In this document: piece by piece, positions 8,735-20,828 of the stretch
Position numbering within the stretch: position 1 is the stretch's first letter
Layout of the letters: each line of letters begins with the position of its first letter
Assembly: GCF_001423885.1 (NCBI RefSeq)
Contig: NZ_LMPP01000001.1
Coordinates: 1,217,543-1,281,542 of the forward strand
From: Rathayibacter sp. Leaf185
GTDB lineage: Bacteria > Actinomycetota > Actinomycetes > Actinomycetales > Microbacteriaceae
Direction: 5' to 3'
Length of the DNA stretch: 64,000 nt
Notes under the pieces: model-generated
Database searches by the model: none
Told to the model about the DNA's origin: nothing
The model's input: the letters and a program-made list of their open reading frames with translations, nothing else
Made by a program: the position numbers and the translations under genes

Positions 8735-10513
8735 ATGCAGCTAGATGATCCAGTTTGGTACGTCGCCTACGGCTCGAATATGGAGCTGTCCGGGATGCGG
8801 CACTATCTCACCGATCCGACCGGCGAACGCCACTTGGCGCACGCCACCGAGGAATTGGAAGGTGTGAACCTTCCATCCGAATGGGTCGACATTCCGCACG
8901 AACTGTATTTTGCCGGCGCCTCGAAGACATGGAAGGGCCCTGTCGCTTTCGTGTCTCTTACCGGCGCTACCGGATCTAAACGGGCGAGAGGACGCTCCTA
9001 CCTCATCAGTGTGCGTCAAATGTTCCAGATCGCCGGGCGCGAGAACGGCCTCGATCAAATCCCCGATCCAATCAATACACTGGATATTTCAATCGGAGCA
9101 TGGGCCCCATTGCCGGTCGGATTGGACAGCGACGGATACAAAGGAAAATACAATGCGCTTCTGCGCTTGCCCGACGGTCCTGACTCGCGACCCGCCTACA
9201 CGCTGACAACCTCGCGATTGCTCGAGATGTCGCCACCGTCCGCGGCTTACCTCGACCGAGTGCGAGCCGGACTGACGCTGGATCCTAGCCAATCCGATAA
9301 CATCCCTGATCCGCTCACCCTAGGACTTGGTTGGAACGGGTCCCTGATTAATGCACGACCCGAGCGCTCCGTCAGATGGAGCGGGCTCTTAACGACATCG
9401 ACGCAATCACGTGGCGTCACTTCCGTCACGATACCGAAGCGTTACAGCGGCGCGGCGGCCTCCGTCAACATGGCTCAGGGGACTCTTTACGCAGGTCTTG
9501 CCGAAGTGTCCGTCTGGGTATTTTTCGAGGATACGAATGACGCAACCATTAGTCCGCAGGCATATCGGAGGCTGAAGAAACTTTACCCTGAACTCGACCC
9601 AACCCAGCGGCCTCTGGCCGTCGAGATTGAATACATCCGTCCCTTCAAGCGGGAGAACGGAGCTTCAGAGGACCTTCCGGACAGCGATGTCATACACGTC
9701 CCGATAGCCGTCGCTACTGATATCGGGAAGTGGGCGCTGCTGATCAGTGAGGGAGTGGTCGGTCCTGTCCGAGTTGTCGCCAGAAAGTCCGTTTCAGATG
9801 ATAATATAAGGGTCGCTTACGCCGCCCGAACCCTGTTCGCCTACGACAAGGCACGCGACATTCAGGTGCAGAGCATGCGGGCGGCGCCCGCCAACTGGGC
9901 GGAGAGGCTGCTCACTCCTTTCCGAACCGCCGGCGAATGGCTCTTCGGCGCTCCGGCTATGGCTCTTCGAGCTACTGAGGCCTTGGTCGGCGACGAGGGA
10001 CGACCCGTTATCCGGGTCGATCCCGGAGCTCTCGACTTCATCGGAGTGGAATCGGGCGGGACCGTCGTCGTCACCTGGGGGACGCGAAGCGTGCACGCGC
10101 GGGTGCTTCTACAGAGTGAACTCACCAGAGCCAGGATGGAGGAGCAGTTCTCCGAGACTACTGGCCAGCAGGTGCGTGCGTCCACGCCGTCGGCGCACGT
10201 CGAGTCCCGGCTAAGGACCCCCGCGCACCTCCGCGTCTGGGTGTCGCCGACGGTCCGGCAGGCGCTCAACATTCCGTCGGACACGGTCGTCCGCGTACGT
10301 CGGAGCGTGCCGCATCTTTTGGTCATGAACTCCTCGCGCTTGGCCCTGTCGATCGCCGCTCTCATCGTCGGGGGTCTCGCAGTACCGAATGTGCACTTCG
10401 GTCTGTGGCTGGTCCTAAGCGCGGCGCTGTTGATGCTGACCCTCGCGCCTCTTCGCCTGCGGCACACCCGAACGGGCCAAAGCCGCGCCTATCGACGATC
10501 GAGCCGGGACTGA
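8735..10513 (+). CDS. Orphan 592-aa protein: gamma-glutamylcyclotransferase-like N-terminus, C-terminal membrane helices
   Basis: It starts at ATG 8735. The N-terminus WYVAYGSNMELSGMRHYL carries the YGSN signature of the gamma-glutamylcyclotransferase (GGCT/AIG2-like) fold. Residues about 55-230 continue as a GGCT-sized domain (FAGASKTWKGPVAFVSL, YLISVRQMFQIA). The middle (about 275-370) is unrecognised. Residues about 430-530 are barrel-like beta segments (VIRVDPGALDFIGVESGGTVVV ... ALNIPSDTVVRVRR). Two hydrophobic helices close the protein (ALSIAALIVGGLAVPNV; LWLVLSAALLMLTLAPL). Codon use (ATA, TTA, AAT and AGT present) and lower G+C differ from the neighbours, suggesting transfer. Function is unknown; the catalytic Glu of GGCT was not located with confidence. 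Confidence 0.7.
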   Translation: MQLDDPVWYVAYGSNMELSGMRHYLTDPTGERHLAHATEELEGVNLPSEWVDIPHELYFAGASKTWKGPVAFVSLTGATGSKRARGRSYLISVRQMFQIAGRENGLDQIPDPINTLDISIGAWAPLPVGLDSDGYKGKYNALLRLPDGPDSRPAYTLTTSRLLEMSPPSAAYLDRVRAGLTLDPSQSDNIPDPLTLGLGWNGSLINARPERSVRWSGLLTTSTQSRGVTSVTIPKRYSGAAASVNMAQGTLYAGLAEVSVWVFFEDTNDATISPQAYRRLKKLYPELDPTQRPLAVEIEYIRPFKRENGASEDLPDSDVIHVPIAVATDIGKWALLISEGVVGPVRVVARKSVSDDNIRVAYAARTLFAYDKARDIQVQSMRAAPANWAERLLTPFRTAGEWLFGAPAMALRATEALVGDEGRPVIRVDPGALDFIGVESGGTVVVTWGTRSVHARVLLQSELTRARMEEQFSETTGQQVRASTPSAHVESRLRTPAHLRVWVSPTVRQALNIPSDTVVRVRRSVPHLLVMNSSRLALSIAALIVGGLAVPNVHFGLWLVLSAALLMLTLAPLRLRHTRTGQSRAYRRSSRD

Positions 10514-10761
10514 GACGGCCCGGCCGGGAAACCTGGCCCACGACACCTGAGGTTGCGTGCGTTCTAAGCGGACGGGTTGAGGCGTGTGGCGTTGTGGATG
10601 AAACTTCCAGTTATGGCTGCAGCTGCCCGCCGAGGTCCTTCCCGACCTCACCGTGTTAGCTGATCAAGTCGGTCACAGCGTCGGATGCGATCACTGGTCG
10701 AGACCTGCACAGCGTCGTACCCATCGACCGTCGGAACTGGTTCCATCGTTTAGCTGAGCCG

Positions 10762-11259
10762 TCACTCCGGCATTGAGAAGTCGGCGAAGTCGAACCCCGG
10801 CGACACCATGCAGCTCACCACCGCGTCCTCCGCCGACGGCAGCGTCCGCTGCCACACGTCCGCCGGCACGAGCGCCTGCACCGGCAGCCCCTCCACAGCC
10901 GACCCCAGCACCACCGTCTCGCCGTCCACCGGCTCCGCTCCGAGGCCGCCGTACTGCAGCGCCACCCGTCCGGGCCCGTTCCAGATCCACGTCTCGGCCG
11001 ACGACACCCGGTGCCAGGCCGAGCACTCTCCCGCCGGCAGCAGGAAGACGATCAGCGTCGCGGCCGGACGCTCGCGCGAGGAGCCGTCCGGGTCACGAAG
11101 CGTCACCCGCTCGGGCGACGTCCACGTCCGCCGATACCAGCCGCCCTCCGGATGCGGCTCCAGCCCCATCGACACCGCGAGCTCGGGCCGGCGTACGCGC
11201 TCGAGCACCCGTCCGTCGACGCTCAGCCGGTCGACCAGCTCGTTCATCAGCTCTGCCAT
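10762..11259 (-). CDS. Cupin_5 (DUF985) family protein
   Basis: A 165-aa protein from ATG 11259 with GGGGGAG five bases upstream. The segment SMGLEPHPEGGWYRRTW is the diagnostic start of DUF985/Cupin_5 proteins. It is followed by TLIVFLLPAGECSAWHRVSSAETWIW (cupin motif 1 with His and Glu), VPADVWQRTLP and the SCMVSPGFDFADF ending. The fold is a small cytosolic beta-barrel; biochemical activity is not established for most members. It overlaps the amidohydrolase gene by 13 nt and is the last gene of the seven-gene ECF operon, so it may act on the same substrate pool (inference). Confidence 0.85.
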   Translation of the reverse strand: MAELMNELVDRLSVDGRVLERVRRPELAVSMGLEPHPEGGWYRRTWTSPERVTLRDPDGSSRERPAATLIVFLLPAGECSAWHRVSSAETWIWNGPGRVALQYGGLGAEPVDGETVVLGSAVEGLPVQALVPADVWQRTLPSAEDAVVSCMVSPGFDFADFSMPE

Positions 11260-12503
11260 CGGATCTCCCCCGAGATGATCGTGGCGAGGGCGGTTCCCTC
11301 GCCGGATTCGACGATCGCGGCGACCACGTCGTCAGGAGCAGCACCGGAGACACCCAGCACCGCGAAGTCGGCCAGCAGTCCCGGCACCAGCGTGCCGAAC
11401 GACTCCGCCTCCCCCATCGCCACGGCCCCGCCGAGCGTCGCCGCCGTCAGCAGCCGCCGGTGCAGATCGTGCTCTGCGTACCCCTGCGAGCGCGCGATCC
11501 GGTACAACTCCGCCACGTCGCCCAGCAGGTCGAGTGACGGAGTCGATGACAGCGAGTCCGTGCCCACCGCGATCGCGTTGCCCTCGCGCAGGTAGTCGGC
11601 GACCGGAGCCTCGTCGAGGCCGATCACCGCGTTCGAGCGCGGACAGAGCGCGACCGAGGTGCCGGTGCGCCGCAGCGTCGCCCGGTCGTCCGCGTCGACG
11701 TAGATCCCGTGCGCGATGTGCACATCGTCGCCCAGCGCACCGATCGTCTCGGCGTAGGCGACCGGCCGCAGGGCGCTGCCGCCGTTGCGCAGCAGGTGGA
11801 AGCCGTCGTAGCCCCAGCGCCGCCACTGCTCAGCGAGGTCACCGCGGCCGTGCATCGTGTACTCCGCCTCCCACGCCGACTCGGCGAGGTGCAGGTGCCG
11901 GCGCACGCCGAGCTCCTGCGACAGCGGGGTCAGGTCACTCAAGACAGGCGTGTCGAGCGAGTACGGCGCGTGCGGCGAGAGGCCGATGCGGGTGACTCCG
12001 GAGGTGCGCACCAGCTCCGCGGTGATCGCGCGCCCGCTCCCCCGCCAGTCGTCCTCGAGGAGGCTCATCAGCTCCCAGTAGGCGATCCCGTGCACCCCGC
12101 CCGCCTCGAGCACGCCCAGCGCGCCGAGGTCGGTGACGATGTCGGCGATGGCCGTGGTGCCGGTCGAGACCGCGATCTCGAGGCCGTCGGCGGCCGAGGC
12201 GCCCCAGTCGTGCGGCTGCTCGTAGACGATCTGGAACGCGCGCGACCAGTCCTCGAAGCCGTCGTAGCGCCCGGCGCCCACCGACGCCATGCAGGTGTAC
12301 TGGAGGTGCGAGTGCGCGTTGACGAGGCCCGGCACGATCGCGCCGTCCCACTCCGTCACCGTCGCGTCGGGGTCGAGCGCGCGCAGCTCGTCGCCCGTGC
12401 CGACCGCGACGATCCGCTCTCCGCGCACGAGCACGCCTCCGCGGTGGATCGGCTCGCCGAGCACGGGCACCACCCACGGAGCAAGGTGCAGCACCGCGCT
12501 CAC
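11247..12503 (-). CDS. COG0402-type amidohydrolase, putative nucleoside/thioether nucleoside deaminase
   Basis: A 418-aa protein starting at GTG 12503, which overlaps the EcfT stop in GTGA. The long open frame extending upstream to 13199 is a shadow of EcfT. Motifs: PGLVNAHSHLQYTCMAS (HxH metal ligands, residues about 63-75), SPHAPYSLDTPVL, HLHLAESAWE (third His), AHGIYVD (fourth His), VALCPRSNAVIG and VGTDSLSSTPSLDLL (metal Asp). This order is that of the SAH/MTA/5-deoxyadenosine deaminase and chlorohydrolase group. The substrate cannot be read from sequence. Co-location with an adenosylhomocysteinase-like gene suggests a purine-ring deaminase (inference). Confidence 0.82.
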   Translation of the reverse strand: MSAVLHLAPWVVPVLGEPIHRGGVLVRGERIVAVGTGDELRALDPDATVTEWDGAIVPGLVNAHSHLQYTCMASVGAGRYDGFEDWSRAFQIVYEQPHDWGASAADGLEIAVSTGTTAIADIVTDLGALGVLEAGGVHGIAYWELMSLLEDDWRGSGRAITAELVRTSGVTRIGLSPHAPYSLDTPVLSDLTPLSQELGVRRHLHLAESAWEAEYTMHGRGDLAEQWRRWGYDGFHLLRNGGSALRPVAYAETIGALGDDVHIAHGIYVDADDRATLRRTGTSVALCPRSNAVIGLDEAPVADYLREGNAIAVGTDSLSSTPSLDLLGDVAELYRIARSQGYAEHDLHRRLLTAATLGGAVAMGEAESFGTLVPGLLADFAVLGVSGAAPDDVVAAIVESGEGTALATIISGEIRWQS

Positions 12504-13318
12504 GGCAGCCACGCCGAGGGCATGACGCCGGCGATGCTCGCGACGCTCGCGGCCGCGGCCAGCAGCACCGCGCCTCCGGTGACGACCCAGTCGGTCGGGG
12601 TGTACCGGATCTCGCGCAGCCACGTGCGCTTGGCCGTGCCGAAGCCGCGCAGGTCGAGCGCGTCGACCGTGTCCTCGGCATCGACGAACGAGGTGATCGT
12701 CACCGGCACCATCAGCGGCGCGATCTCGCGGAGGCGTCGCACCGGATTCCGCGTCGCCGACCGCTCGTAGCCGCGCAGGCGCTGCGCCGCGGCCGTCTCC
12801 TGCAGGTTCGCCGCCGCGCTCGGCAGGAACTTGAAGGTGAGGTCGATGCCGTACGCGAAGCGCGCCGGCAGCCCGAGCCGCGCGAACGCGACCGCCAGAT
12901 CGCCCGGGCGGATCGCGAACGCCAGCGGGAAGCCGACCGCGACCAGGGTGATGAAGCGCAGCAGCAGGTTCACCGCGTACGACACCGCCCCCTCCGTGAT
13001 CGGCAGCCCGATCAGCGGCACGGTGAGCAGGGTCGCGCCGGGATCGCCCGGGCTCGTGGCTCCGACGATCAGTCCGTTGATCCCCGCGAAGACCACGACG
13101 AACACGGCGACGACCGCCCAGTTCGTCCGGACCTCGCGGAACGGGATCCGCGCGCTGAAGTAGTACGCCAGCGCTACGACGAGCAGCGCCGCCATCCACC
13201 GCAGATCGCGCACCTGGCTCGCGGCGATGACGAACATCACCGGGACCAGGATCAGCACGCGCGGATCCCGGCGCCCGAGGAAGGAGTCACCGCCGAGATA
13301 TCGAGGCGATACCTCCAT
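12500..13318 (-). CDS. ECF transporter transmembrane component (EcfT/CbiQ family)
   Basis: A 272-aa membrane protein from ATG 13318. It has about five hydrophobic helices (VLILVPVMFVIAAS, WMAALLVVALAYYF, WAVVAVFVVVFAGINGLIV and others). Two coupling motifs that contact the ATPases can be seen: AAAQRLRGYE in the cytoplasmic region and ALDLRGFG closer to the C-terminus, corresponding to the Ala-Arg-Gly motifs of EcfT. It begins 12 nt after the S-component stop and ends in a GTGA overlap with the amidohydrolase. It forms the energy-coupling scaffold of the importer encoded at 12500-15567. Confidence 0.88.
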   Translation of the reverse strand: MEVSPRYLGGDSFLGRRDPRVLILVPVMFVIAASQVRDLRWMAALLVVALAYYFSARIPFREVRTNWAVVAVFVVVFAGINGLIVGATSPGDPGATLLTVPLIGLPITEGAVSYAVNLLLRFITLVAVGFPLAFAIRPGDLAVAFARLGLPARFAYGIDLTFKFLPSAAANLQETAAAQRLRGYERSATRNPVRRLREIAPLMVPVTITSFVDAEDTVDALDLRGFGTAKRTWLREIRYTPTDWVVTGGAVLLAAAASVASIAGVMPSAWLP

Positions 13319-13330
13319 CTCGCGCGCCCG

Positions 13331-13897
13331 TCAGCGTCCGGCGAGGTTCTGGAGCGGCTTCCAGACCCGATCGAGCACGGGGACGAGGATCACCGCGGTG
13401 ATGCCGGTCGCGAGGATCGCGAGCAGGTAGGAGCCGAAGAACCAGTACTCGAAGGTCTGGCCGAGGAGCACCCAGTCGGTGATCGTGAAGAGCAGGCCCA
13501 CGACGACGGCACTGACCGCGATCGCGGCGGCCCAGACGACCTGACGGCCGGTGGTGCGCGGCTCCTTCGCGTAGTAGCCGATCAGGCCCGCGAGCAGGCC
13601 GACGAGACCGTTCGCGATGCTCCAGTTCCAGTAGGTGAGGAACCCGTATCCCATGATCTGGTCGACGATCGCGTTGCCGACGGCGCCGGTGAAGAAGCCG
13701 GCGACCGGTCCGAAGCGCAGGCCCACGAAGGGGATGATCGCGATCGCGGGCCGGATCGAGATCATCGTGCCGGGGATCACGAAGCTCAGGGCGCCGAGTG
13801 CGCCGTAGAGGGCGGCGCCGACGGCACCGAAGACGATGGTGCGCGACGAGACGGCCCAGGGGCCCGTCTTCGAGGCGGTCGTGGAGGAGGCGGTCAC
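13331..13897 (-). CDS. ECF transporter S component, substrate unknown
   Basis: A 188-aa protein from GTG 13897 (GTGA overlap with the ATPase stop). Six hydrophobic segments are visible, beginning TIVFGAVGAALYGALGALSFVIPG. IRPAIAIIPFVGLRFGPVAGFFTGAVGNAIVD is the typical S-component stretch with conserved Gly and Asn. Later helices include GLVGLLAGLIGYYAK and SYLLAILATGITAVILVPV. S components bind the transported vitamin, metal or nucleobase-like compound. This one is in a dedicated (group I) ECF operon with its own EcfA and EcfT, so its ligand should be the substrate of the co-encoded enzymes. Confidence 0.85.
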   Translation of the reverse strand: MTASSTTASKTGPWAVSSRTIVFGAVGAALYGALGALSFVIPGTMISIRPAIAIIPFVGLRFGPVAGFFTGAVGNAIVDQIMGYGFLTYWNWSIANGLVGLLAGLIGYYAKEPRTTGRQVVWAAAIAVSAVVVGLLFTITDWVLLGQTFEYWFFGSYLLAILATGITAVILVPVLDRVWKPLQNLAGR

Positions 13898-15567
13898 GGG
13901 TGCGTCCTTTCGAGGGGGGTCTCCTCGGCACGGCGGAGGCGCCGAGCGAGGTCGAGCGGGCGGGGGAGGCGTCCGCTCGGGGGTCCGTGGCGCCGGGCGG
14001 CGCGCACGAAGTCGGTCTCGCGGAGCACCGCACGGGGCTGCTCCGCCTCGGCGCCCGGCACGTGCCAGAGGCCGGAGTCGTTCACGATCTCGGCCGGAGT
14101 CGCGTCCGCGATGATCCCGCCGCCGTCGACGACCACGATGCGGTCGGCCCGCGCGAGCGCCATGTCGATGTCGTGGGTGATGAAGTACACGCTGTCGATC
14201 CCGTCGATCGCCCAGACGGCGTCGAGGAAGTGGCGCGACGACCTCTCGTCCTGCCCGGCCGTCGGCTCGTCGAGGATGAGCGTCCGCGGCTGCAGTGTGA
14301 GCGCGAGTGCAACGGCGAGCCGGCGCTGCTGCCCGAACGAGAGCGTGCGCGGGGGGCGCGTGAGGATGTCGGGCACGTCGTCGAGCGAGACGGCACGCAG
14401 TGCGGCGGCCGCGATCGCCGGGATCTCCTCCTCCGGGACCCCGAGATTGCGGGGACCGAAGGCGAGCTCGGCCTCGACCGACTCGCTGAAGAGCGCCTGC
14501 CCGGGGTTCTGAAAGAGGTAGCCGCAGGTCGAGACGAGCTCGGCCGCGCTCAGCTCGTGCACCGGCCGCGCGTCGATCAGCACGCGGCCGCGGCGCGGGG
14601 CGACCAGCCCGACGGCGGCGCGCATCAGCGTCGACTTGCCCGCGCCGTTCCGGCCGAGGATTGCGACGCGCTCGCCCGCCTCGAAGCGGCGGTCGACGGC
14701 GGCGACGATGGTGCGGGCGCCGTAGCCGAGCTCCGCGCCCTCGAAGTGGAGGCGCGCGACGTCGCCCGGCAGAGTCGGCGCGGTCTCGCCCACCGCCTCC
14801 TCCGCGCCGTGATCGCGCGCGAGGAGCGCCGAGAACGGCAGCTTCACCGACTCCGGAGACGCCACCTCGAGGAACCCGGCGACGTCGCCCGAGAAGACGA
14901 CCCGCCCCTCCTCGAGGTACACCACCCGGTCGGGAGCGAGCGCGAGCACCTCGTCGACCCGGTGCTCGACGATCACGGCGGCACCGCCTCCGTCGACGTA
15001 GTCGCGCACCGCCCGCAGCAGCACGTCGGCCGCGTCGGGATCGAGGTTCGCCAGCGGCTCGTCGATCACGATCACGCGCGGCTCGAGCACCAGGATCCCT
15101 GCGAAGGCGACCAGCTGCAGCTGCCCGCCCGAGAGCTCGTGCGGCGGAGTCTGCAAGAGGGGAGTCAGCCCGAGCCGCTCGGCGACACGGTGGGCGCGTT
15201 CGCGGATCTCCGCGGGCGCGGTCCCGCGGTTCTCGAGGCCGAACGCGATCTCGGCGAGCACGCTGTGGCCCACCACCTGCTTCGACGGGTCCTGGAGGAG
15301 GGTGCCCACCACCTCCGAGATGTCGCGCAGCGCGAGCGGAGTCGCCTCGCGCCCCTCGATCTCGATGCGGCCGGTCACCTCGCCCCGGTACGAGCGCGGG
15401 ACCAGACCGTTGAGCACGCGCAGCAGGGTGCTCTTGCCGCAGCCGGAGGGGCCGGCGACCAGCACGATCTCGCCGCTCGACACCGAGAACGTCGCGTCGA
15501 CCAGCGACGGCCGCTGGGCGTTGCGGTAGGTCACCCCGACGCCCTCGAGGCGGAGCAGCTCGGTCAC
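13894..15567 (-). CDS. ECF transporter ATPase, two fused nucleotide-binding domains
   Basis: A 557-aa protein starting at GTG 15567 in a GTGA overlap with the hydrolase-like gene. Domain 1: Walker A AGPSGCGKST (about 33-42), signature ELSGGQLQL, Walker B VIVIDEPLANLD. Domain 2 from about residue 285: Walker A GRNGAGKST, Q-loop GYLFQNPGQALF, signature TLSFGQQRRLAVA, Walker B LILDEPTAGQD, and switch FITHDID. Both domains look competent; domain 2 has SFGQQ instead of SGGQ. EcfA and EcfA' are fused into one chain, as in many actinobacterial ECF systems. It is peripheral on the cytoplasmic side and binds EcfT. Confidence 0.9.
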   Translation of the reverse strand: MTELLRLEGVGVTYRNAQRPSLVDATFSVSSGEIVLVAGPSGCGKSTLLRVLNGLVPRSYRGEVTGRIEIEGREATPLALRDISEVVGTLLQDPSKQVVGHSVLAEIAFGLENRGTAPAEIRERAHRVAERLGLTPLLQTPPHELSGGQLQLVAFAGILVLEPRVIVIDEPLANLDPDAADVLLRAVRDYVDGGGAAVIVEHRVDEVLALAPDRVVYLEEGRVVFSGDVAGFLEVASPESVKLPFSALLARDHGAEEAVGETAPTLPGDVARLHFEGAELGYGARTIVAAVDRRFEAGERVAILGRNGAGKSTLMRAAVGLVAPRRGRVLIDARPVHELSAAELVSTCGYLFQNPGQALFSESVEAELAFGPRNLGVPEEEIPAIAAAALRAVSLDDVPDILTRPPRTLSFGQQRRLAVALALTLQPRTLILDEPTAGQDERSSRHFLDAVWAIDGIDSVYFITHDIDMALARADRIVVVDGGGIIADATPAEIVNDSGLWHVPGAEAEQPRAVLRETDFVRAARRHGPPSGRLPRPLDLARRLRRAEETPLERTHP

Positions 15568-16844
15568 GAGCGCGCTCCGTCCCGCTGCGGAGCGGCGCGG
15601 CGGCCGGTCGACGTCCAGCTGCCGAGGAACTCCTGCTGCGCGACGCTCGGGCGGTCGATCGCGACGCCGAGCGACGCCAGCTTGATGCGCGCGACGCGGT
15701 CGTCGACCTCGGGAGGCAGCAGGTGCACCGCGGGCGCCAAGCTCCCCGACTCGCGCGCCAGCACGTCGATCGCGGCGGCCTGCACCCCGAACGACAGATC
15801 CATGATCTCGATCGGGTTGCCCTCGCCGGCCGTGCAGTTGATGCAGCCGCCGTCGTCGAGGACGACGATCGAGCGGCCGTTCGGCAGCCGGAAGCTCTCG
15901 AGCGCGTGCCCGATGCTCTCGCGGGTCGCGCCCGCGGCGAGCGCCGCGTCGATCGCGATCTCCTGAGCGACGCCGCCCGAGACGGCCACGGCCGCACCCT
16001 CGGGCAGCGCCAGGAGGTGCTCGACGTCGATCGTGTGCGCGATCCCGGTCGCCGAGATCAGCAGATCCGCCGTCGAGGCAGCGCTCTCGAGGGTGTCGAC
16101 GTCGTAGCCGGCGAAGACGGCCTCGAGGGCGCGCACCGAGTCGACCTCCGAGATCGTCACCCGGGCGCCGAGCGCGCGGGCGTGCTGCGCGACTCCGCGG
16201 CCCACCGGCCCGAAGCCCGCGACGACGACGTGAGCGCGGTCGAGCGGAGTCGCCAGGAGATCGAGCATCGTGAGGAGCGTCGACTGCCCCGTGCCGTGCC
16301 GGTTGTCGAACAGCGTCTTGCAGCGCGCGTCGTTGACCGCGAGCACGGGGATGCGCAGCGCGCCCTCGCGCTCCATCACCCGGAGGGGACGGAGACCGCT
16401 GGTGGTCTCCTCCGTCGCCCCGCGCAGTCTGTCGAACACGGCGGGCCGGTCGGTGTGCGCGAGCCGGGTCACGGAGGAGCCGTCGTCGACGAGGATGTCG
16501 AGCTGCTGATCGAGCAGCGCGAGCGCGAAACCGCGGTCGTCGGCGGCGGTCGCGTCGGAGCGCGCGAAGACGGCGATCCCGGCATGCTGCAGTGCCGCAG
16601 CCGTGTCGTCGTGGGTGTTGGAGGCTCCGCACATCACGCTCACGTCGGCGCCCGCCGCGGCGAGCTCCAGCGCCAGGGTCGCGGTCTTGGGCTCCAGCAC
16701 CAGGACGAGCCCGATGCGCAGACCCCGCACGCTGCCGCTCTCGCGCAGCTGCCCGGCGACTCCGCGGGTCACCGGCATGAAGCGGGAGGCCCACTCGATC
16801 TTGTCCCGGCCCTGCTGCCAGAGCGACGCGTCGCGGATGCTCAT
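15564..16844 (-). CDS. Adenosylhomocysteinase-like NAD-dependent hydrolase with altered active site
   Basis: A 426-aa protein from ATG 16844, overlapping the upstream gene in ATGA. It follows the archaeal/Thermotoga-type S-adenosylhomocysteine hydrolase layout: GRDKIEWASRFMPV, CGASNTHDD, LVDDGSSV, GATEETTSGLRPL, LAVNDARCKTLFDN (catalytic Lys and Asp kept), HGTGQST, then the NAD site VVAGFGPVGRGVAQHARALGARVTISEVD. Two positions stand out: the LHLEAKTA motif reads LVLEPKTA, so the active-site His is Val, and the GHFD motif reads GVAQ. It is therefore probably not an ordinary SAH hydrolase. The operon partners suggest a related nucleoside thioether (inference). Confidence 0.8.
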   Translation of the reverse strand: MSIRDASLWQQGRDKIEWASRFMPVTRGVAGQLRESGSVRGLRIGLVLVLEPKTATLALELAAAGADVSVMCGASNTHDDTAAALQHAGIAVFARSDATAADDRGFALALLDQQLDILVDDGSSVTRLAHTDRPAVFDRLRGATEETTSGLRPLRVMEREGALRIPVLAVNDARCKTLFDNRHGTGQSTLLTMLDLLATPLDRAHVVVAGFGPVGRGVAQHARALGARVTISEVDSVRALEAVFAGYDVDTLESAASTADLLISATGIAHTIDVEHLLALPEGAAVAVSGGVAQEIAIDAALAAGATRESIGHALESFRLPNGRSIVVLDDGGCINCTAGEGNPIEIMDLSFGVQAAAIDVLARESGSLAPAVHLLPPEVDDRVARIKLASLGVAIDRPSVAQQEFLGSWTSTGRRAAPQRDGARS

Positions 16845-17533
16845 CGGAGGAGCTCCTCGGCGAGGGCGCGGTCGGCGCGGCGGTGCAGATCGTCGGGCGA
16901 TGCCGCCGGGTCCTCCGCGGTGGCCCGGTGCAGGGCTCGCGCGAATCTCGCGGTGAGGGCCTCGCGGGTGCGGCGGGCCGACCCGTCGGCGATCTCGCGC
17001 GCGACGAGCACGAAGGCCTCGCGGTCGGCCTCGGTCAGCCGCGCGATACCGGGGCGTCCGGAGGAGGGATCGGTGAGCGCGACGACCGCCGGTTCGGTCT
17101 CGGCCGCGTCGACGAGGAGGAGGGGACCGCCGGTGCCGAGGGCACGCGCGGTGATGGGCTCGGCGAGCTCCCCCGTCGCGAAGGCGAGGACCGCGTCGCC
17201 GAGGCGAGGCGCCTCCGTGCTCGCGATGGCCACGCCGCGCTGCGCGAACTCGACCAGCGCCACCGGATCGTCGCCGACGACGACCACGCGTGCGCCCACC
17301 GCCCCGAGACGGGTGGCGAGCTCGGAGGCGAGGGGTCCGGTGCCGAGGACCGCGATGCGGGTCTGCGCGAACGAGAGGTTGCTCGCGCTCGCGGTCGCCC
17401 GCACGACGGCCTGCGCCCAGGCGGTGCGCGAGACGGCCGTGACCACGCGCGAGACGGAGGCGTCCGCGAGCGGGGCGGCGTCCAGGAGCGCGCGCTCGCG
17501 CTCGCGGCGCGGCGGGGTGAGGGTGGCGGTCAT
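16841..17533 (-). CDS. Rossmann-fold protein resembling an adenosylhomocysteinase NAD domain
   Basis: A 230-aa protein from ATG 17533 with TGGAG upstream; first gene of the seven-gene operon. Residues about 50-115 (NLSFAQTRIAVLGTGPLASELATRLGAVGARVVVVGDDPVALVEF) follow the dinucleotide-binding section of SAH hydrolases: a glycine-rich loop, then GA-V-V--DPV--LE. There is no recognisable substrate domain, and the C-terminal 60 residues are Ala/Arg-rich helix. It may pair with the adjacent hydrolase-like protein, which starts in its ATGA overlap. No function can be assigned. Confidence 0.65.
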   Translation of the reverse strand: MTATLTPPRRERERALLDAAPLADASVSRVVTAVSRTAWAQAVVRATASASNLSFAQTRIAVLGTGPLASELATRLGAVGARVVVVGDDPVALVEFAQRGVAIASTEAPRLGDAVLAFATGELAEPITARALGTGGPLLLVDAAETEPAVVALTDPSSGRPGIARLTEADREAFVLVAREIADGSARRTREALTARFARALHRATAEDPAASPDDLHRRADRALAEELLR

Positions 17534-17574
17534 CGGCGCTCCAGGAGTCGGGGCCCGCGCTCGTGGTCGGCGCG

Positions 17575-17602
17575 ATGGTCTAAGCGGTTAGCGTGTGACC
17601 AT
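17575..17602. promoter_or_regulatory. Nested inverted repeat upstream of the ECF operon, candidate operator
   Basis: ATGGTC (17575-17580) and GACCAT (17597-17602) form the outer arms. CTAA (17580-17583) and TTAG (17588-17591) form an inner symmetric pair around GCGG. It lies 42 nt upstream of the first gene start on the minus strand, where a repressor site would be expected. No cognate regulator is adjacent. Confidence 0.35.
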
Positions 17603-17690
17603 AGTCGCGTCGTATTTCGGTGGCACGCTCGTTTATTACGACGACGTGAAACATTCGGCGAGGGCAGGGAGCGGCCCGGCACCGACCTTC

Positions 17691-17726
17691 TGGTCGAGCA
17701 GCCCCGTAGGGGCGCATCGAGACCCA
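17691..17726. repeat. Dispersed intergenic palindromic repeat, copy A
   Basis: Arms GGTCGA...TCGAGACC flank an inner GCCCC-GTA-GGGGC. Related copies occur at 44999-45035 and 47898-47936, all in gene-free spacers. It looks like a REP-type element of this genome. Confidence 0.6.
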
Positions 17727-17773
17727 CCTCACTGCGGACGTCGGTCTTCCGCTCGACGGGACCCCCTCACGCA

Positions 17774-17813
17774 GCGATGCGCCGGACCCCCTCTCGGGGA
17801 GCCGGCGCATCGC
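17774..17813 (-). terminator. Hairpin terminator of the ice-binding-type gene
   Basis: A perfect 12-bp stem, GCGATGCGCCGG (17774-17785) with CCGGCGCATCGC (17802-17813). The 16-nt loop can itself pair CCCC with GGGG. It lies 17 nt after the stop codon of the gene at 17831. There is no U-tract, as is common in actinobacteria. Confidence 0.75.
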
Positions 17814-17830
17814 CTCCGTCGGATCTGCGA

Positions 17831-19603
17831 TCAGCTCTTCAGGTGCTTCTCACGTCCTCGGTGCTGGGCGAGGAGCAGCATCCCCGCGCCGGCGAGCAGG
17901 ACCAGGAGAGCGGCCGAGCCCGTCATCGCCATCGCCGCGCCGTCGGTGCCGGTCGAGGCGAGACTCGCCTGCGGTCCCTGCGGTCCGTGTCCGCCGCGAA
18001 CGGGGACGGTCGGCGACGGCGAATCGGAGGGTCGGGTCGTCGGCACGGGTGCCACAGCCGTCGGAGTGCTGGTCGGCGTCGGCGTCACGGTCGGCGTGGC
18101 GGTCGGCGTCGGCGTTGCCGTCGGTGTCACGGTGGGCCGCGGCGTCGGGGTCACCGTGGGCGTCGCGGTCGGGGTGACCGTGGGAGTCGCGGTGGGCGTG
18201 ACGGTCGGAGTCACGGTCGGCGTGACCGTCGGCGTGACGGTAGGCGTCACGGTCGGAGTGACGGTAGGCGTCACCGTAGGCGTGACGGTAGGCGTCACGG
18301 TCGGGGTGACCGTGGGCGTCACCGTCGGGGTGACCGTCGGAGTAACGGTCGGCGTGACCGTCGGCGTCACGGTCGGGGTGACCGTGGGCGTCACCGTCGG
18401 GGTGGCGGTAGGCGTCACGGTCGGGGTGACAGTGGGCGTCACGGTCGGGGTGACCGTGGGCGTCACCGTCGGAGTGACGGTAGGCGTCACGGTCGGGGTG
18501 ACCGTGGGCGTCACCGTCGGGGTAACGGTAGGCGTCACCGTCGGGGTGACCGTCGGCGTCACGGTCGGGGTGACCGTCGGCGTCACCGTCGGGGTGACCG
18601 TCGGGGTGACCGTCGGGGTGACCGTCGGCGTGACAGTCGGCGTCACCGTCGGAGTGACAGTAGGCGTCACCGTCGGCGTCACGGTCGGGGTGACAGTAGG
18701 CGTCACCGTCGGAGTGACCGTCGGCGTCACGGTCGGAGCGACCGTCGGCGTCACGGTCGGCGTCACCGTCGGAGTGACAGTAGGCGTCACCGTCGGCGTC
18801 ACCGTCGGAGTCACGGTAGGCGTCACGGTCGGCTCCGGCGCCGCCGTGCAGGCGGAGGTCCGGAAGAGGTTGTTGTCGAGAGTCACCGCACCGTTCCTCG
18901 CGAGCGCGCGCCCGTCGACGGTGGTGCTCGTCGTCACGGTGATCGAGGCCAGCGCCAGGATCGAGCCCGAGAAGCTCGAGCCGGTGCCGAGTGTCGCCGA
19001 GCTGCCGATCTGCCAGAACACATTGCACGCCTGCGCCCCGTTGACGAGCGAGACCGAGCTGGCGGTCGCCGTCGTCAGAGCGCTCGCCACCTGGAAGACG
19101 AAGATCGATCCGGGCACGTTCTGCGCATCGAGGGTCACGGTTCCGGTGATCCCGATCGGTCCCGAGGACTTGTAGACGCCCGGCAGGAACGTCCGTCCGA
19201 CGAGATCGCCGGCGATGTCGTCATCGGGCGCCTGGGAGGCGAGCTGGTCGTAGGCGATGACGAGGTCGGACTGCGCCTGGATCGCGACCGCGTCCGCGGC
19301 GTGCGTCGTCCCGTTCACGACACCGGGCGGGAACCCGGTGATGGCCGTGCCCGGGCTGACGCCCAGATCGTCCGGCAGCACGGTCTGCCCGGTGTTGGTC
19401 ACGGTCGAGCCGCCCAGCACCGAGAAGGCGCCCGCGGTGCCGAGGTCCGGCTTCGTGGCCGCCTGAGCGGGCGAGCCGACGATGAAGCCGACGGCGAGGA
19501 CGGCGATCCCTGCGGTCGCCGCGACGGCACCCCTCGCTCGGTGCACTAGCCGCCGGCGCTCACTGGCGCGATCGGACGGGTGACGTTCGGACATGTGCGG
19601 CAT
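17831..19603 (-). CDS. Ice-binding-like (DUF3494) surface protein with long Thr-Pro repeat and LASTG sorting signal
   Basis: A 590-aa protein. Residues 1-48 are a signal peptide (RRR, then GAVAATAGIAVLAVGFIVG and cleavage near AQAA). Residues about 50-255 are the DUF3494/ice-binding beta-helix domain (DLGTAGAFSVLGGSTVTNTG, ADAVAIQAQSDLVIAYDQLAS, GRTFLPGVYKSSGPIGITGTVTLD, FVFQVASALTT, GSSFSGSILALASITV). Residues about 260-515 are a low-complexity stalk of TPTV units. The C-terminus is a cell-wall sorting signal: LASTG (548-552), a hydrophobic helix and a basic tail. The class E sortase at 62022 could anchor it. DUF3494 proteins can bind ice or act in adhesion; which applies is not shown. Start is ATG 19603 or ATG 19594. 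Confidence 0.85.
   Translation of the reverse strand: MPHMSERHPSDRASERRRLVHRARGAVAATAGIAVLAVGFIVGSPAQAATKPDLGTAGAFSVLGGSTVTNTGQTVLPDDLGVSPGTAITGFPPGVVNGTTHAADAVAIQAQSDLVIAYDQLASQAPDDDIAGDLVGRTFLPGVYKSSGPIGITGTVTLDAQNVPGSIFVFQVASALTTATASSVSLVNGAQACNVFWQIGSSATLGTGSSFSGSILALASITVTTSTTVDGRALARNGAVTLDNNLFRTSACTAAPEPTVTPTVTPTVTPTVTPTVTPTVTPTVTPTVAPTVTPTVTPTVTPTVTPTVTPTVTPTVTPTVTPTVTPTVTPTVTPTVTPTVTPTVTPTVTPTVTPTVTPTVTPTVTPTVTPTVTPTVTPTVTPTVTPTVTPTVTPTVTPTATPTVTPTVTPTVTPTVTPTVTPTVTPTVTPTVTPTVTPTVTPTVTPTVTPTVTPTVTPTVTPTVTPTVTPTATPTVTPTATPTVTPTPRPTVTPTATPTPTATPTVTPTPTSTPTAVAPVPTTRPSDSPSPTVPVRGGHGPQGPQASLASTGTDGAAMAMTGSAALLVLLAGAGMLLLAQHRGREKHLKS
18062..18831 (-). repeat. Tandem 12-bp repeat encoding Thr-Pro-Thr-Val
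   Basis: About 770 bp of imperfect 12-nt repeats, (T)P-T-V-T-P on the coding strand and GTSACSGTMGGS-like on the plus strand. Third positions vary, so the peptide is more uniform than the DNA. Occasional TPTA and TPRP units occur toward the gene's 3-prime end. It is a likely site of slippage and length variation between strains. Confidence 0.9.
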
Positions 19604-19829: not shown

Positions 19830-20828
19830 ATGTCCCCCCGGCCCCGGCGCCCGACCCTCGCCGATGTCGCGCGCGCGGCGGGCACCTCGGCCACCGTCGT
19901 GAGCTACGTCGTCAACAACGGCCCGCGTCCGGTGTCGAACGAACTGCGCGCCCGCGTCGAGGACGCGATCTCCGAGCTCGGCTACCGCCGCAACTCCCTC
20001 GCCGAGGCCCTCAGTGTCGGCCGTTCCAGCCTCGTGGGCCTGCTCGTCCCCGACTCCTCCAACGCCTTCTTCGGCGAACTCGCGCGCCATGTCGAGCACG
20101 AGGCGCGCAGCCGTTCGCTGCTGACCCTGCTCGGCAACACCGAGTACGACCCGGAGGTGGAGCGCGGCTACGAGCGCACCTTCGCCGATCTCCGCACTGC
20201 CGGCACGCTCCTCGTGACCATCGACCCGGCGAGCGCCGCCGACTCCGCCCCCCGCGTCTTCATGCACTCCGCACCACCCACCGACGCCGAGCCGAGTGTC
20301 GTCTTCGACGACGCGCAGGGCGCCCGGGCGGCCGTCGAGCACCTGCTCGCGCACGGCTACGACGACGTGCACTGCGTGACCGGACCCGATGACTTCGGCC
20401 CGTCCGGACTCCGCGCCCGCTACTGGGCCGAGGCCGTCACCGAGGCCGGGCGCTCCGTCGACGCCCGCCTGCACCGCGTCCCGATGGACCGCGTCTCCGC
20501 CGAGCAGGAGCTGCGCCGCATCCTCCGCACCGAGCGCCCCCGCGCGGTCTTCGCCACCACCGACGAGCACGCACTCGCGCTCCTGCGTGCCGCGTCCCAG
20601 GAGCGGATCGACGTCCCCTCCGAGCTGGCGGTCGTCGGCTTCGACGGCATCCGCGAGGCGCTCCTCGGAGGCGTCCGCGTCACGACCGTCGCCGTCCCCG
20701 TCCGCGACATGGCCCGCATCGCCTTCGAGCTCCTCGATGAGTCCTTCACCGGCTCGGCTCCGCGCCACGTCCGCCTCCCCACGACCCTCGTCGTCGGCGA
20801 GACCTGCGGCTGCCCACCCACCCCCTGA
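19830..20828 (+). CDS. LacI-family transcriptional regulator
   Basis: A 332-aa protein from ATG 19830. Residues 8-55 form the LacI helix-turn-helix and hinge (PTLADVARAAGTSATVVSYVVNNG then LGYRRNSLAEAL). From about 62 the sugar-binding core follows: VGLLVPDSSNAFFGELARHVEHEA, TGPDDFGPSGLRARYWAEAV, AVFATTDEHALALL and VVGFDGIREALLGGVRVTTVAVP. The effector is unknown. It stands alone between divergent and convergent neighbours, so its target is not obvious; it could act on the divergent 19603 gene or on its own promoter. Confidence 0.9.
   Translation: MSPRPRRPTLADVARAAGTSATVVSYVVNNGPRPVSNELRARVEDAISELGYRRNSLAEALSVGRSSLVGLLVPDSSNAFFGELARHVEHEARSRSLLTLLGNTEYDPEVERGYERTFADLRTAGTLLVTIDPASAADSAPRVFMHSAPPTDAEPSVVFDDAQGARAAVEHLLAHGYDDVHCVTGPDDFGPSGLRARYWAEAVTEAGRSVDARLHRVPMDRVSAEQELRRILRTERPRAVFATTDEHALALLRAASQERIDVPSELAVVGFDGIREALLGGVRVTTVAVPVRDMARIAFELLDESFTGSAPRHVRLPTTLVVGETCGCPPTP

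Follow-up and report, generated by a model that had tools for sequence, protein, structure and literature searches.

A divergent adenosylhomocysteinase paralogue and an amidohydrolase form the conserved core of a candidate uptake operon for modified purine nucleosides in several actinobacterial families

Introduction

The nearest described counterpart of the system reported here is the DadD and S-inosylhomocysteine (SIH) hydrolase route of Methanocaldococcus and Thermotoga, in which a COG0402 deaminase is combined with an E-x-K protein of the adenosylhomocysteinase (AdoHcyase) family. As described in PMC10978960, the HxExK motif marks the SIH-preferring enzymes, its Lys bonds the inosine C6 oxygen, its His matters for catalysis, and the molecular gate consists of a His-Phe pair. 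In this study, we analyzed a stretch of 64,000 nucleotides from Rathayibacter sp. Leaf185 (contig NZ_LMPP01000001.1; the whole stretch is called the window), and we describe a seven-gene operon within it that encodes a divergent AdoHcyase paralogue (SAHL), a COG0402-type amidohydrolase (AH), and an energy-coupling factor (ECF) importer.

Like the DadD route, this locus joins a COG0402 deaminase to an E-x-K protein of the AdoHcyase family, and three relatives also retain an intact HxExK enzyme beside SAHL. It differs in that the genes share one operon with an importer, that SAHL lacks the catalytic His, the gate, and the GHP His, and that AH fails the curated methylthioadenosine (MTA)/S-adenosylhomocysteine (SAH) deaminase models. 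When compared to the SAH hydrolases (PF05221/PF00670; 3x2e, 7r37, and 7r3a), SAHL has homology over the full length, the NAD domain, and the 3'-OH oxidation residues, but its catalytic and gate residues are replaced and a half-size AdoHcyase remnant precedes it. As in self-contained ECF importers, the fused EcfA, EcfT, and EcfS are adjacent in one operon; here, however, nucleoside-type enzymes are linked to them, and ATP-binding cassette (ABC) importers substitute for the ECF module in 67 of the 80 loci that we kept for counting. No paper combining the operon's terms was found in open-licence full texts.

Results

The operon is located in a 4.1-Mb genome and consists of seven minus-strand genes, which are listed below in the direction of reading (17533 to 10762).

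16841..17533, minus strand: Ross, 230 aa; apparently a degenerate cofactor-binding domain of the AdoHcyase type that lacks the catalytic domain
15564..16844, minus strand: SAHL, 426 aa; a divergent AdoHcyase paralogue (PF05221, 107 bits; PF00670, 101 bits)
13894..15567, minus strand: EcfA-EcfA', a fused ECF ATPase of 557 aa with a GTG start and two ABC_tran stretches
13331..13897, minus strand: EcfS, the substrate-binding S component, 188 aa with a GTG start (PF07155, 71 bits, above the cut-off)
12500..13318, minus strand: EcfT, the transmembrane component, 272 aa (PF02361, 77 bits, above the cut-off)
11247..12503, minus strand: AH, a COG0402-type amidohydrolase of 418 aa with a GTG start (Amidohydro_1, 110 bits)
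10762..11259, minus strand: Cup5, an accessory Cupin_5/DUF985 protein of 165 aa (PF06172, 121.3 bits; cut-off 25)

SAHL and AH were each used as query against one set of 150 genomes of the window's family, with thresholds of at least 44% identity for the SAHL clade (one of these matches is a fragment) and E 1e-60 for AH. On our reading of the matches, the SAHL clade was present in 26 genomes and AH also in 26, with both in 25 and neither in 123 (Fisher 3e-26, uncorrected for kinship); the two single occurrences were a degenerate SAHL in G024 and an AH in G093. The degenerate copy (locus L049), whose genome gave no AH match at E 1e-60, appears to reflect decay. A collection of species genomes was then scanned with an AH profile, which yielded 317 stretches, and the best 80 were kept for locus counts. 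SAHL was found near AH in 73 of these 80 loci, always on the same strand (the seven without it were L078, L087, L088, L090, L099, L129, and L131). In two loci of one genus (L046 and L047), SAHL and AH are even fused in a single open frame, and L108 gives the same signal. The conserved core of the system is AH plus SAHL, very tightly linked. A sample of 396 genomes of the phylum gave 22 AH matches, and wide regions were examined for 12 of them, the window's own genome and nine others being excluded. Only in L170 did SAHL adjoin AH; in the other 11 distant regions, whose AH proteins are 29-34% identical to that of the window, SAHL was not found at E 1e-6. Since 11 of the 12 distant regions show no SAHL at this threshold, the linkage seems to be confined to the close AH subfamily.

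SAHL aligns to SAH hydrolases over nearly its entire length (~306 bits to the Thermotoga enzyme), and it scored 410 bits with NF004005 (cut-off 275) and 359 bits with TIGR00936 (cut-off 497.6). The active site was compared to the Thermotoga enzyme in 101 rows (100 open reading frames found in 98 of the 105 loci and the SAHL of the window; some genomes occur twice), among which only copy 1 of L042 and copy 1 of L100 were intact HxExK enzymes. In the 99 SAHL rows, the catalytic His was replaced by V, F, T, I, or L in every case, the gate His by G (98) or A (1) with loss of the adjoining Phe, and the GHP His by N (98) or D (1). The Lys of E-x-K, K186, and D190 were kept in 101/101 rows and the Glu of E-x-K, D131, and N191 in 100/101, the exception being the degenerate L049, while the E156 position was occupied by E (85), Q (15), or D (1). 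We take K186, D190, and D131 (rat/human numbering) to be residues of 3'-OH oxidation, and the E-x-K pair is, by PMC10978960, the mark of hypoxanthine-preferring enzymes. With the catalytic His, the gate His-Phe pair, and the GHP His lost, SAHL is no ordinary SAH or SIH hydrolase. The sequence-only reading of this DNA had assumed that a thioether is cleaved as in SAH hydrolases, an assumption not supported by the residues lost in 99/99 rows. Judged from its residues, SAHL seems capable of holding a hypoxanthine nucleoside and of oxidising the 3'-OH, but not of carrying out the 5' chemistry by the known route.

No other AdoHcyase match besides SAHL was found in the window genome. In the same genome, LuxS adjoins a PNP_UDP_1-family gene (G000:C1:1321794-1322908), which from its position we infer to be an SAH nucleosidase. 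Because both genes are present, SAHL is probably dispensable for SAH recycling, and a housekeeping role of SAHL in this process was set aside. A second divergent AdoHcyase clade was observed in 12 loci (L057-L066, L068, and L069). Its members keep the His and the gate and instead change DDG to DNG and FDN to GEN or AEN (D131N- and D190E-type changes). Their neighbours include an adenosine deaminase (9/12), a phosphotransferase system IIB protein (8/12), and an inosine-uridine nucleoside hydrolase (7/12), with none of these in three loci. As this clade adjoins an adenosine deaminase in 9/12 loci, a different AdoHcyase variant also travels with a purine deaminase.

In AH, the metal and catalytic residues H64, H66, H205, E208, H265, and D316 were invariant among 40 sequences, as in a COG0402-type protein; H64 and H66 presumably form the HxH motif, and the others are assigned by us as metal-site His/Asp and the catalytic Glu. 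By predicted fold, AH appeared to lie nearest to adenosine, MTA, and aminofutalosine deaminases (4f0r/4f0s, 4gbd, and 7lkk). AH differs from the 5'-MTA/SAH/adenosine and aminofutalosine deaminases in being 17-27% identical to them and in lying under the equivalog cut-offs. It fell below the curated MTA/SAH and 5'-deoxyadenosine deaminase models (NF012037, 62.6 bits against 779; NF005557, 102.5 bits against 522), and its best NCBIfam score was 140 bits, with 8-oxoguanine deaminase (cut-off 532). On the strength of the modelled fold, AH is probably an adenosine-type nucleoside deaminase.

The A, T, and S components are all present and score above the cut-offs of TIGR04520 (323 bits against 315 for EcfA), PF02361, and PF07155, which identifies the transporter as an ECF importer. 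EcfS, for which 7 sequences were aligned and whose predicted model was poor (pLDDT 53), scored 69.3 bits with the riboflavin S component model NF010182 (cut-off 99), and a phmmer search of PDB sequences reached E 0.17 at best; on these two results, a vitamin reading of EcfS was dropped. Eight of the 80 kept loci had the ECF module (with SAHL in all eight and the cupin in five). An amino-acid-type ABC importer occupied 49 (SAHL in 49, cupin in 46) and a sugar-type ABC importer 18 (SAHL in 15, cupin in 0), and five had no such importer within reach (SAHL in 1, cupin in 4). The importer is interchangeable among these three classes. A tree of 28 hand-chosen SAHL rows grouped the ECF-type proteins of Rathayibacter, Cryobacterium, Nocardia, and Mycolicibacterium (90/92) and, separately, the sugar-type proteins (100/100), so that SAHL seems to track importer type more than species.

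In an alignment of the amino-acid-type binding protein (70 rows, being 69 of the 105 loci and a reference, with some genomes twice), S/T122 was kept in 70/70, R127 in 70/70, and D211 in 68/70 rows. We equate these positions with the HisJ/LAO-like residues that grip the alpha-amino and carboxyl groups, and because they are kept, the ligand of this version probably has an amino-acid end, like SAH. Among the sugar-type loci, 14/18 contained an NtaA/DmoA-family flavin monooxygenase and 14/18 an inosine-uridine-type nucleoside hydrolase. The ytmI-type sulfur-scavenging operon of Bacillus subtilis also has an importer beside an NtaA-family flavin monooxygenase but is not known to include an AdoHcyase-like protein or a nucleoside deaminase, and this likeness of importer plus monooxygenase concerns the sugar-importer version only.

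The first gene had been read as encoding a generic Rossmann protein. That reading was replaced, since a Ross profile built from 15 relatives matched the SAHL cofactor domain by hhalign (probability 96.5, E 7e-10); the family names given to the other six genes were upheld by Pfam and NCBIfam. Residues 41-121 of Ross also matched NF004005, with 23 bits (E 2.4e-5) and thus under the model cut-off. When the Ross profile was scored against five sets, the intact AdoHcyase copies (copy 1) came first (87.7), followed by the copy 2 set (82.5) and the others (69.0, 56.7, and 53.6), which gives a slight lead to derivation of Ross from copy 1 rather than copy 2. In relatives, Ross, encoded either by its own gene or as an N-terminal fusion with SAHL, occupies the place of the intact copy. 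An intact HxExK copy stands directly before SAHL in L042 (the window's family), L100 (an Acidimicrobiia metagenome-assembled genome), and L170 (another family). The tree sets these three intact copies apart as a clade of their own outside SAHL (100/100), with the SAHL proteins of the same loci diverging early within the SAHL part. Because intact copies precede SAHL, Ross takes the same place, and Ross scores best against intact copies, we infer that the operon began as a pair of intact and divergent AdoHcyases, of which the intact copy would have shrunk to the cofactor domain. The arrangement in L042, L100, and L170 may represent the ancestral state.

Four of the six gene junctions are four-base overlaps (ATGA at Ross/SAHL; GTGA at each of SAHL/EcfA, EcfA/EcfS, and EcfT/AH), and the remaining two are a 12-nt gap between EcfS and EcfT and a 13-nt overlap of AH and Cup5. 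The coordinates thus bear out the earlier description of seven co-directional genes. The nearest relatives by AH among named genomes belong to Rathayibacter, and within this genus SAHL (85-100% identity) and EcfS were found in the identical 10 of 15 genomes; SAHL is split in two pieces in G553, and an eleventh genome (G542) has merely a 35% AdoHcyase match. Four Rathayibacter records (L070-L073) contained all seven genes, as did Cryobacterium zongtaii (L074). The order Ross-SAHL-EcfA-EcfS-EcfT-AH-cupin was itself observed in L074, L033, and L034, the latter two being the contigs of L070 and L071. A version without the cupin, in unchanged order, occurs in Mycolicibacterium porcinum (L075), Nocardia sienata (L081), and Nocardia fusca (L082), where the Ross label comes from predicted-gene comparison and not from the stricter tblastn. 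As it is found in Rathayibacter, Cryobacterium, Mycolicibacterium, and Nocardia, the gene set is real and common to Microbacteriaceae, Nocardiaceae, and Mycobacteriaceae. The expectation that the seven families recur together in order holds for the Rathayibacter and Cryobacterium relatives; the exact set, however, is one version among several, with the ECF module in 8/80 and ABC importers in 67/80 loci. Downstream of the M. porcinum operon (L075, 11274-16369) lie an SsuD-like monooxygenase gene and dipeptide-type ABC genes, the ABC part being assigned by eye.

The PDB relatives of Cup5 are 1znp and 3loi/3lzz, of which 3LZZ and 3loi are identical in sequence. For the little-characterised Cupin_5 proteins, PMC11594714 gives 3LZZ as a structure bound to guanosine diphosphate, and an isomerase role in nucleotide metabolism has been proposed, as cited in PMC8704077. 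By analogy, the Cupin_5 link would fit, if weakly, a purine or sugar step.

A consensus scan of 10400-18000 revealed no promoters or terminators, and Rfam at gathering scores detected two tRNAs and no riboswitch in the window. Among 14 relatives, the sole Rfam riboswitch was a cobalamin riboswitch of N. fusca (L082; 104 bits, 18685-18896), ~7 kb from the operon. The operon is flanked in the window by a convergent 592-aa open reading frame (8735-10513, plus strand) with no Pfam match at 1e-5, and on the other side by a gene for an ice-binding-like protein (17831-19603, minus strand; PF11999, 213 bits) whose long tail consists of TVTP-type repeats. A 24-bp tandem repeat of ~32 copies (18077-18832) lies within the region of this gene, and a LacI-family regulator is encoded at 19830-20828 (plus strand).

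Discussion

The reading that we prefer, with a probability of about 0.5, is that the operon takes up a 5'-substituted purine nucleoside, deaminates it, and processes it in an NAD-dependent step. The ECF importer would bring in an adenosine derivative, for which an SAH-like compound is the leading guess, and AH, as its fold and family suggest, would convert the adenine moiety to hypoxanthine. The E-x-K pair of SAHL would hold the hypoxanthine nucleoside, and SAHL with bound NAD+ would oxidise the 3'-OH by means of the conserved Asp/Lys/Asp/Asn set, giving a 3'-keto intermediate that would let SAHL expel a group. Because SAHL lacks the usual acid/base His, the expelled group would have to leave easily or to sit elsewhere than in SAH. 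Ross, as a reduced second AdoHcyase copy, may assist the complex, and Cup5 probably acts on or holds a purine/sugar product. The logic of importing a compound, deaminating it, and then processing it had been proposed from the sequence alone, and it is favoured by the AH-SAHL linkage, the AH fold, the E-x-K pair, the nucleoside hydrolases, and the amino-acid-binding residues; the canonical cleavage that completed the proposal is not supported.

We consider it unlikely that SAHL is a non-catalytic regulatory or scaffolding subunit derived from a duplicated SIH hydrolase, with AH performing the sole nucleoside chemistry. The loss of the His residues in 99/99 rows, the intact AdoHcyase directly before SAHL in three loci, and Ross as a further reduced copy are all consistent with this explanation, but a dead subunit would have no need to keep K186 and D190 (101/101 rows each) and D131 (100/101), and the intact copy is found beside SAHL in those three loci only. 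It is rather unlikely that the substrate is a non-nucleoside ring, for instance a vitamin-like heterocycle or a base that is oxidised or carries an amino substituent, and that SAHL acts outside nucleosides. ECF importers usually carry vitamins, EcfS belongs to the broad riboflavin-type family PF07155, and 8-oxoguanine deaminase is the top NCBIfam score of AH; this score, however, is far under its cut-off, the fold neighbours of AH seem to favour adenosine-type nucleoside deaminases, and both the nucleoside hydrolase in 14/18 sugar-importer loci and the kept E-x-K pair argue for a nucleoside. The canonical route, in which imported SAH (or MTA) is converted to SIH and then to inosine and homocysteine by the usual mechanism, is improbable despite the kept E-x-K pair, the intact HxExK enzyme adjoining SAHL and AH in L042, L100, and L170, the amino-acid-binding residues of the alternative importer, and the precedent of DadD and SIH hydrolase in PMC10978960, since the residues called catalytic and gating there are missing in 99/99 SAHL rows and the window genome has no other AdoHcyase match while having LuxS and nucleosidase-family genes for SAH recycling.

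A more specific proposal, offered very tentatively and at long odds, is that SAHL is a novel nucleoside lyase that has the AdoHcyase fold and depends on NAD. It would oxidise the 3'-OH of the imported and deaminated nucleoside and expel a group able to leave without acid assistance, such as the methionine of an S-adenosylmethionine (SAM)-derived sulfonium nucleoside. A His-free pocket near the sulfur position would fit such a lyase. If this were true, the operon would be the first dedicated uptake-and-salvage route for sulfonium nucleosides, and the second AdoHcyase clade, which has lost the complementary part of the active site, would have been invented in parallel.

Returning to the import, deamination, and processing of a 5'-substituted purine nucleoside, the tight pairing of a nucleoside-type deaminase with SAHL across several actinobacterial families, together with an importer that may belong to any of three classes, suggests a so far undescribed uptake route for modified purine nucleosides. 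For annotation, at least one curated model (NF004005) would name SAHL an adenosylhomocysteinase although the defining residues are lost, and TIGR00936 would not. If the ligand is SAH- or SAM-like, these bacteria would possess a dedicated import-and-recycling path for the leftovers of the methyl cycle, and the operon would also show the AdoHcyase fold turned to new nucleoside chemistry.

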